DNA from: an uncultured Chlorobiaceae bacterium
GTDB lineage: Bacteria; Bacteroidota; Chlorobiia; Chlorobiales; Chlorobiaceae
DNA: 37,938 bases
Direction: 5' to 3'
Assembly (NCBI GenBank): GCA_903869365.1
Contig: CAIPYV010000077.1
Span: forward strand, 1 to 37,938
Part shown: piece after piece, positions 35,905-37,938 of the stretch
Numbering within the stretch: the stretch's first letter is position 1
How the letters are laid out: every line of letters begins with the position of its first letter
Translations under genes and position numbers: made by a program
The notes under the pieces: generated by a model
Told to the model about the DNA's origin: nothing
Databases searched by the model: none
Seen by the model: the letters and a program-made list of their open reading frames with translations, nothing else

Positions 35905-36252
35905 ATGCATGTTTTTATTGTCATTGTCGGTTTACTTGCATCCATTCTGCTCATAGGCTCCATCTTGCTTCAGAGTCCTAAAAGCGGCAGCGGGCTTACC
36001 GGTGGTATGTCCAGCCTCGGAACTGTTCAAACGCTTGGTGTAAGAAGGACCGGTGATTTTTTAAGCAAGACAACGGGCATGCTCGCAGGATTTGTCATGG
36101 TCATTTGTTTTATTGCACAGTTCACTCTGCCAGGCAAAAAAACAGCAGCAACTGCAACTGAAAGTGTTCTTCAGAAAAATCTCCCTGCAGCACCAGCTCA
36201 AGGGAAAACATTGCCAGCAACACCCTCTCGACCAGTGTTGCCTGCAAAATAA
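35905..36252 (+). CDS. secG: Preprotein translocase subunit SecG
   Basis: A 115-residue SecG, an accessory subunit of the SecYEG export channel. It has a first helix ([20 protein letters not shown]), the conserved [17 protein letters not shown] loop, a second helix ([18 protein letters not shown]), and a Pro/Ala-rich cytoplasmic tail. tRNA-Lys follows 8 bp later. Confidence 0.93.
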
Positions 36253-36260
36253 AAGTATAT

Positions 36261-36335
36261 GCGCCCGTGGCTCAATGGTAGAGCAATTGACTCTTAATCA
36301 ATGGGTTGGAGGTTCGAGTCCTCCCGGGCGCACCA
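36261..36335 (+). tRNA. tRNA-Lys (CTT anticodon)
   Basis: Acceptor GCGCCCG pairs with CGGGCGC. The anticodon loop CTCTTAA gives CTT, and the T arm reads GGAGGTTCGAGTCCTCC. CCA is encoded (36333-36335), unlike the other tRNAs in the window. Confidence 0.94.
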
Positions 36336-36341
36336 TATAAC

Positions 36342-36382
36342 AGAAGGACTTACAGGATTACACTTGTAAGTCCTTCTTGTTT
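36342..36382. terminator. Strong terminator hairpin overlapping the end of the ScmC-like gene
   Basis: Thirteen bases at 36342-36354 pair perfectly with 36365-36377, followed by TTGTTTT on the plus strand. It ends the secG/tRNA-Lys transcript. The ScmC-like stop (36358-36360) lies in the loop and the last codons (KKDLQV) form one arm. Confidence 0.8.
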
Positions 36383-37290
36383 TCTACCTCAGATCTCCCT
36401 GTTACCTTTTCCATTTCAACCCAGAACATACCATCAAGGGTGACAGAAAGCCTGTAGGCAGGAATATGGTGAGCCATCCGGCAGACATTTTCAAAGATCA
36501 GACAGTGCATCTCTTTCCGCTGGTCGCTCTCAGAAAAATTTGAATACTTTTGCCATATCTGCAGTACAGAAGCATTCATTGCTGCAGCATTTTCAGCCTT
36601 CTTCAATAAAGGTACCGCCGCATCCCGATCTTTCGACCGCTCAAGAAAGAAAATTCCAGCAAGAGGCACTCCGAGCGAGACATCCCAGAATTTTTTGCCC
36701 ATACCTCCATTCAGGAAACTGCTCCATGTAGGCATAGGATGGACACGGTACCGATTATGAGGTTCACAGACCACAAGCACCTCATCATCACAGCGGCTTA
36801 ACCATTCACCGTGCAGCCTGCTGCTGCAGGTCGATTTACCCGTGCCGCTTCCTCCGGCGAGAAGATATGCCTTACCCTCATGTTCAGCCATGGCAGCATG
36901 AAAAGGCACACCGCCGGATTTGATAATCGAGCGGTAGACAGGATACAGAAGGCGACACATATTGATCATTGCAATACTCATGTCGCCGCCATGATCAATA
37001 TAAGCAGTAACATCACCGCCAGAGGAGGTGTTCAGCAGGATTGTCTGCAGCGATTCAAGATGACTCTCAGCAGGTGCACCGCTCTCGAATAATTCCGGGT
37101 GTCCGATAAAATCCAGCCTCCGTGCTCTTCTGCAATGCAGTAACAAATCCTGTTCATCATAACACTCAGGCAACGTCAAAATTTCCGCAAAATGGTCAAT
37201 CCAACCCTGTACCTGAGATTCCGCCGAAAGATCCCATACAGCCGAAGTTCCAAAAGACAACCGGTATTTCCGTCCCTTATGAAATTCCAC
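36358..37290 (-). CDS. HPr-kinase-like P-loop protein, ScmC-like
   Basis: A 310-residue protein with a Walker A motif GGSGTGKST (146-154), preceded by VPFHAAMAEHEGKAYLLA and followed by a CDDE motif (167-170), the layout of HPr-kinase/PEPCK-type P-loop proteins that occur in peptide-modification (RiPP) loci. The resemblance in arrangement and neighbour to ScmC of the SynChlorMet cassette (described in Chlorobium limicola and others, with two radical SAM proteins and a PqqD-like protein) is from memory, not alignment. GTG 37290 is the start, after AAGGGTGACGG. It begins 13 bp after the precursor-like peptide gene. No radical SAM or PqqD gene is in the window. Possible activity: phosphorylating the peptide or a partner. 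Confidence 0.75.
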   Translation of the reverse strand: MEFHKGRKYRLSFGTSAVWDLSAESQVQGWIDHFAEILTLPECYDEQDLLLHCRRARRLDFIGHPELFESGAPAESHLESLQTILLNTSSGGDVTAYIDHGGDMSIAMINMCRLLYPVYRSIIKSGGVPFHAAMAEHEGKAYLLAGGSGTGKSTCSSRLHGEWLSRCDDEVLVVCEPHNRYRVHPMPTWSSFLNGGMGKKFWDVSLGVPLAGIFFLERSKDRDAAVPLLKKAENAAAMNASVLQIWQKYSNFSESDQRKEMHCLIFENVCRMAHHIPAYRLSVTLDGMFWVEMEKVTGRSEVENKKDLQV

Positions 37291-37303
37291 CCGTCACCCT
37301 TAA

Positions 37304-37522
37304 TTAAGCTGTTCCGCGAGACAATCCCGAAGATTCACAATTTCCTCTTGCAGAGATTCCCGAACTTTCACAGTTATTACCAGCAATAGATCCTGTTTTA
37401 CAAACTGTCGCTACAGAAGATCCAGAGTTGCAATTATCGTCAGCACCTATGGCGCCGTTCATTGACAACGCTTTGAGTTCAGGTTTTTCCCATAAGATTT
37501 TACGCATGTTATTTTCGTTCAT
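37304..37522 (-). CDS. Cys-repeat precursor-like peptide, ScmA-like
   Basis: A 72-residue peptide from ATG 37522 (an in-frame TTG at 37531 is an alternative). The N-terminal part MRKILWEKPELKALSMNGAI has the WxKPxL pattern of RiPP leader sequences. The C-terminal 45 residues (core-like) are rich in Gly, Ser and Asn with four cysteines spaced 10, 10 and 11 residues apart, each followed by [N/K/E][S/T][G/S]: NCNSGSS, VCKTGS, NCESSGIS, NCESSGLS. No signal peptide is visible. The HPr-kinase-like gene follows 13 bp later. Modification of the Cys/Ser/Thr units is inferred; the mature product is unknown. Confidence 0.7.
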   Translation of the reverse strand: MNENNMRKILWEKPELKALSMNGAIGADDNCNSGSSVATVCKTGSIAGNNCESSGISARGNCESSGLSRGTA

Positions 37523-37715
37523 GATGTTCAACTAAAAGAAAAAAACCCCATTGATGGAATATACCAAAAATACAAACTGTAATGGTTGACTGGTACAGAG
37601 TATATCGAATGTCTGTACAACAAGAAGGAGTACAAAATCGTTTCAATGCAATCAACCGAAGAACTTCCAGCATCGTCAACCGCATAACGATAGCGCATTG
37701 CATCCTGACTCCATG

Positions 37716-37938
37716 TTATTTCAATAACCGCACACCAGTGATGGTTTTTGGAAGCGTAATATGCACACATGTCCCATTCATAGGCTTGCTTTCAATCTTG
37801 ATATCCCCGTTCATCTCCTTGATGATTCCATAGCTTATCGAAAGACCAAGTCCAGTGCCTTTTCCCGACTCTTTGGTGGTATAGAAAGGATGCATGATGT
37901 ATTCAATATTTTTTTCACTGATCCCTATCCCGGTATCC
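37716..37938 (-). CDS. Histidine kinase, C-terminal ATPase end (partial)
   Basis: Only the last 74 codons lie in the window; the gene continues past 37938. The frame shows the HATPase G1 box DTGIGIS, then F-box-like HPFYTTKESGKGTGLGLSIS with the G2 box GTGLGLS, and ends VHITLPKTITGVRLLK at TAA 37718-37716. It would autophosphorylate a His upstream and pass phosphate to a response regulator not seen here. It lies about 190 bp upstream of the peptide gene on the same strand; the gap holds no gene. Confidence 0.9.
   Translation of the reverse strand, partial: DTGIGISEKNIEYIMHPFYTTKESGKGTGLGLSISYGIIKEMNGDIKIESKPMNGTCVHITLPKTITGVRLLK

Follow-up and report, generated by a model that had tools for sequence, protein, structure and literature searches.

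The gene pair and its surroundings

The window analysed here, 37,938 nucleotides long, is the entire contig C77 of an uncultured Chlorobiaceae bacterium whose genome (2.93 Mb in 136 contigs) is 99.99% complete. Near its right end lie two genes on the minus strand that an earlier note on this DNA had singled out, describing a 72-residue peptide with a WxKPxL leader-like start and a Cys-repeat tail, encoded 13 bp upstream of a P-loop protein gene, with tRNA-Lys and secG to the left of both. The open reading frames lie where the note had placed them, as do the tRNA gene and secG (35905-36252). The features of the region are as follows, with the basis of each assignment in brackets.

37304..37522, minus strand: ScmA-type precursor peptide gene, 72 aa (open reading frame; precursor profile; below the TIGR04252 cut-off)
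37475..37492, minus strand: leader motif W-E-K-P-E-L, residues 11-16 ([WY]-x-x-P-x-[LV] is common to precursors of other Scm loci)
37307..37432, minus strand: core with four C-x(2,3)-G repeats, Cys 31, 41, 51 and 62 (family repeat pattern)
37291..37303, minus strand: 13-bp spacer containing the ribosome-binding-like AAGGGTGA (sequence)
36358..37290, minus strand: ScmC, HPr-kinase/PEPCK-like P-loop protein, 310 aa (TIGR04249; AlphaFold model; hhalign to HprK)
36898..36900, minus strand: conserved His131, equivalent of the HPr-kinase catalytic His (35 of 35 ScmC proteins; aligned to the HprK His)
36829..36855, minus strand: P-loop GGSGTGKST, residues 146-154 (sequence; ScmC alignment)
36784..36789, minus strand: Asp168-Asp169, the HPr-kinase DD motif (D168 in 35 of 35 and D169 in 33 of 35 ScmC proteins; aligned to the HprK DD)
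36342..36377, no strand assigned: tRNA-Lys terminator hairpin with the ScmC stop codon in its loop (hairpin in most aligned relatives)
36261..36335, plus strand: tRNA-Lys(CTT), bordering the insertion on its left (conserved secG-tRNA-Lys order within the genus)
37716..37937, minus strand: 3' portion of a multicopy histidine-kinase gene that the contig edge truncates (open reading frame; overlap with other contigs)

The peptide is read from an ATG and could alternatively start at another, in-frame ATG (37507) or at a TTG (37531); the P-loop gene, which lies 3' of it, begins with GTG. Transcription of the pair heads toward tRNA-Lys and secG, so that genes to the right of the pair are upstream of it; a promoter scan returned sites no more numerous than in shuffled sequences.

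The P-loop protein as ScmC

The SynChlorMet cassette is defined in NCBIfam by the families TIGR04248 to TIGR04252, i.e., ScmD, ScmC, ScmE, ScmF and ScmA. By its profile match the P-loop protein is clearly ScmC, as the earlier note had proposed: it scores 272.1 bits against TIGR04249, more than twice the equivalog cut-off of 125, over positions 1-291 of the 292 in the profile. A Pfam search with the same protein gave no match above threshold, and a sequence search of the PDB gave no real match. In an alignment of 35 ScmC proteins, the window protein keeps 30 of the 34 columns conserved to 85% or more, and the four that deviate lie outside the P-loop, the His and the DD pair, so that His131, the GxGKST P-loop and Asp168-Asp169 are all retained and the kinase motifs are intact. 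Aligned by hhalign with true HPr kinases of related genomes, ScmC shows these three elements in the same order and spacing (probability 85, E=6e-6, 86 columns). An AlphaFold model built with 11 ScmC sequences as input (pLDDT 82.5, pTM 0.83) predicts a fold like that of the PEP carboxykinases (PEPCK), which are the best PDB fold matches among those listed (Z 14.6, 265 aligned residues, rmsd 5.2); HPr kinase structures are absent among the matches listed, and the PEPCK fold is related to that of HPr kinase. The same genome encodes a full-length ordinary HPr kinase (HprK) on contig C96; that role therefore does not have to fall to ScmC, and we have discarded the idea that it is the cell's own HPr kinase.

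The precursor family

Whether the peptide is ScmA, which the earlier note took it to resemble, depends on how the family is drawn. Against the curated ScmA model TIGR04252 it reaches 16.8 bits (E=0.0059), below the cut-off of 35 bits, and in that strict sense the assignment does not hold; a profile built from 17 precursors of other Scm loci, with the window peptide left out, recovers it with E=3.3e-10 (41.8 bits), which places it in a broader Scm precursor family. The curated model is narrow, since it matches only nine of 17 precursors of other Scm loci even at E<=1. Membership of the window peptide in the family that accompanies ScmC elsewhere is, by sequence comparison, well supported.

Reading the neighbourhoods of ScmC genes in Chlorobium species, Desulfobacterota, Saganbacteria and Victivallaceae yielded 26 precursors, the window's included, which have in common an N-terminal [WY]-x-x-P-x-[LV] motif followed by Cys-x(2,3)-Gly repeats. 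Gly stands at +3 or +4 after 128 of the 140 Cys, the Cys are mostly 9-12 residues apart (median 10), Ala occupies the position three after the Gly in 48% of the repeats, and Ser plus Thr make up 43% and 38% of the residues on either side of the repeat Gly, as against a background of about 21%. In the window peptide each of the four Cys (31, 41, 51 and 62) is followed by a Gly of the family type and the spacing is 10-11 residues; this pattern was reached by 1.3e-5 of shuffled tails, under a scoring rule that was set up with the family consensus already known. The window peptide ends in Ala, and none of the family precursors ends in Ser. At two loci (L057, 9091-9477; L103, 7345-7704) the precursors are unusually long, with 14 Cys after the leader.

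Precursors adjoin ScmC in many of the loci surveyed. Among 98 Chlorobiia genomes, intact precursors were found by profile only in the four that also encode ScmC above cut-off, and each of these four encodes ScmD, ScmE and ScmF as well; weak precursor matches in two further genomes (G005 and G021) were discarded for the stop codons inside them.

Partner genes elsewhere in the genome

The earlier note had reasoned that the radical SAM and PqqD-like partners must lie to the right of the pair or elsewhere, and a profile search of the genome locates them elsewhere: ScmD, ScmE and ScmF occur above cut-off only on contig C118 (129, 628 and 604 bits, with a second ScmF at 597 bits). The order there is ScmD, ScmE, ScmF, ScmA, ScmC, ScmA, ScmF, S26 peptidase, ABC exporter; close by is an NTP_transf_5 gene, of a kind that is also found in Scm cassettes. 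Judged by gene cluster, the window pair does not form a SynChlorMet cassette, since no ScmD, ScmE or ScmF lies near it; judged by genome it does have one, in the single ScmD/E/F set on C118. Genes for an S26 peptidase, an ABC exporter or a maturase are likewise absent from the vicinity of the pair, which is thus, on the evidence of the assembly, detached from the rest of an assembly line located elsewhere in the same genome. Nor is it the only such unit, for contig C33 carries two related precursors followed by ScmC, with no radical SAM gene within the 15 kb read.

At most of the surveyed loci ScmE and/or ScmF stand beside ScmC, and most exceptions are at contig ends. The clear cases of detached ScmC are C77 and C33 of the host genome and one locus of another genome (L112, G150:C222), which has ScmC, ScmD and a nucleotidyltransferase but, over 17 kb, neither ScmE nor ScmF, and in which no precursor was recognised. 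In three Desulfobacterota loci (L108, 7617-9128; L109, 3717-5195; L110, 7752-9071) ScmC and the S26 peptidase form one open reading frame of 439-503 aa, a fusion that implies a common substrate.

Two further loci also came to light. One is lasso-peptide-like (L012, G000:C116:9001-25000), with two HPr-kinase-related genes, asparagine-synthase-like and transglutaminase-like (B2-type) genes and a PqqD-like gene; the other (L114, G000:C43:28000-37269) groups three radical SAM genes of SPASM-like type with genes for a PqqD-like protein and an S26-type peptidase, none of which exceeds a named family cut-off.

Insertion site and lineage of the pair

Past the peptide gene the contig runs for another 416 bp and breaks off inside the multicopy histidine-kinase gene, the rest of which is on C12 or C14. 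The last 139 bases of the contig (37800-37938) are identical to the first 139 of contigs C12 and of C14, which marks the gap as a repeat break in that gene; neither C12 nor C14 has Scm genes above cut-off. On the other side, the order secG-tRNA-Lys is conserved in the genus, and relatives have secG, tRNA-Lys and a similar terminator hairpin followed by unrelated sequence. The hairpin is present in most of the aligned relatives, which are without ScmC at this site. In the window the ScmC stop codon falls inside the loop of the hairpin; resident terminator sequence thus makes up the last codons of the kinase gene, and the edge of the insertion is near 36389. Integration at the tRNA gene with a direct repeat was considered and rejected, no repeat of at least 14 nt being found in 36200-37938.

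In the ScmC tree the window kinase groups with a kinase of another Chlorobium species, genome G036 (support 100/99). A grouping with the kinases of C118, C33, G037 and G038 is rejected with p-AU 0.005, a value to be read with the long branches involved and with the fact that the group was named after the tree had been seen. On this topology, and with that post hoc test, a duplication from the resident C118 cassette is not favoured. The leaders agree with the tree in setting the window apart, WxKPxL being all that the window leader keeps of the C118 and C33 leader features, and by leader and kinase alike the pair is of another Scm lineage than the C118 cassette. It looks, from these comparisons, to have been acquired separately, beside tRNA-Lys. 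The C33 kinase belongs with those of C118 and G037, which gives the two detached pairs of this genome different histories. Genome G036 itself has a locus (L046, on its contig C1) with two divergent ScmC genes in tandem and one recognised precursor.

Proposed function and its alternatives

With a little more than even confidence, we regard the pair as a genuine SynChlorMet-type RiPP module, separately acquired, in which ScmC phosphorylates the precursor while the C118 enzymes act on it in trans and the C118 exporter carries the product out. ScmC, as an HPr-kinase-like protein, would phosphorylate its cognate precursor, most likely at the Ser or Thr flanking the Gly of the Cys-x-x-Gly repeats; ScmD would serve as a leader-binding chaperone of the PqqD type and, with the radical SAM enzymes ScmE and ScmF of C118, would then act in trans on the Cys repeats, where ScmE and ScmF would probably form thioether or C-C crosslinks; and the product would be processed by the S26-type peptidase and carried out by the ABC exporter, both encoded on C118. 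The missing partners are most simply accounted for if the C118 set acts in trans. That ScmC phosphorylates its precursor is probable, because the two genes adjoin and co-occur, because two detached units hold just precursor and kinase, and because of the S26 fusions and the precedents among lasso-peptide kinases. Detachment of the pair plausibly points to a kinase that acts directly on the precursor, and the second detached pair and the kinase-peptidase fusions strengthen this. Since no precursor has a C-terminal Ser, internal Ser/Thr residues are the candidate sites, although the Ser/Thr richness of the repeats may be structural rather than for phosphorylation.

The different lineage of the window leader and kinase means that their acceptance by the C118 enzymes is not a given, and it makes a serious rival of the unlikely reading that the pair is what remains of a second, G036-like Scm cassette which has lost ScmD, ScmE and ScmF and no longer yields a product. 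The absence of maturases, peptidase and exporter nearby and the fusion of the ScmC tail into the tRNA terminator fit such a stranded state. Both reading frames are intact, though, with regular repeats in the one and, in the other, deviations from ScmC conservation that spare every kinase motif, and the same genome holds a compatible ScmD/E/F set. Two detachments in one genome, with no maturase within reach of either, would suit a two-gene system in which ScmC alone phosphorylates or otherwise acts on the peptide and radical SAM enzymes never come into contact with it; we think this quite improbable, as every genome of the class with both precursor and ScmC has ScmD, ScmE and ScmF too and the leader motif and Cys repeats, likely maturase features, have been retained.

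Doubt may also be turned on the kinase. ScmC could be a regulator, could phosphorylate some other protein, ScmD for instance, or could activate the precursor at the expense of ATP, any of which would accord with its GKST in place of the GKSE of HprK and with PEPCK, rather than HPr kinase specifically, being nearest among the fold matches listed; its adjacency to precursors in many loci, its co-occurrence with them and its fusion to the S26 peptidase make these roles improbable. Beyond the module with C118 enzymes acting in trans, which we prefer, we put forward as rather unlikely the idea that such pairs are interchangeable cartridges, each kinase setting the phosphorylation pattern on its own Cys-repeat core while one ScmD/E/F set reads the W-x-K-P-x-L leader that they share. 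If it were true, one set of radical SAM enzymes in one genome would give three products of two lineages; a yet bolder form would have Ser/Thr phosphorylation prime elimination and the addition of Cys.

Comparison with known systems

ScmA/ScmC systems are known in databases only as named families, and the literature that was searched for SynChlorMet, and for ScmE/ScmF in connection with radical SAM, returned nothing relevant and named the cassette nowhere. The detached pair offers a minimal two-gene test of whether ScmC acts on a precursor, one that does not involve the radical SAM enzymes and their sensitivity to oxygen. The broader comparison of loci gives a better definition of the precursor family than the curated model, with C-x-x-G repeats at intervals of 10-11 residues. 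It also adds the S26 peptidase, in some loci fused to ScmC, as a regular Scm partner, and suggests that kinases and precursors are arranged combinatorially.

The Scm cassette resembles ranthipeptide and sactipeptide systems in combining Cys-repeat precursors with SPASM radical SAM maturases; to our knowledge those systems do not have ScmC as a defining gene. With bacterial HPr kinase/phosphorylase, ScmC shares the arrangement of His, P-loop and DD, but it differs in the last residue of the P-loop and in that the similarity is confined to the 86 aligned columns. Among lasso peptides, HPr-kinase homologs phosphorylate the linear precursors, and the phosphate is extended with hexoses by a nucleotidyltransferase (PMC8498205). 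The Scm system is like these (paeninodin, ThcoK and SyanK, and the kinase plus nucleotidyltransferase of pseudomycoidin; PMC8498205) in joining a kinase-like gene to a RiPP precursor, a PqqD-type chaperone and a nucleotidyltransferase, and unlike them in that the window module has no lasso cyclase, its kinase is of the ScmC family and its precursors lack a terminal Ser, for which reason a terminal-Ser kinase of the lasso type was rejected. The closest likeness is to the SynChlorMet cassette itself: the window ScmC is well above the family cut-off and adjoins a precursor of the same repeat type, and the host genome has a full cassette. The pair departs from that cassette in lying apart from ScmD/E/F, S26 peptidase and ABC exporter, in a precursor below the curated ScmA cut-off, and in a kinase of other lineage than the resident one; it is a genuine but uncharacterised natural-product module, a variant of the named Scm kind.
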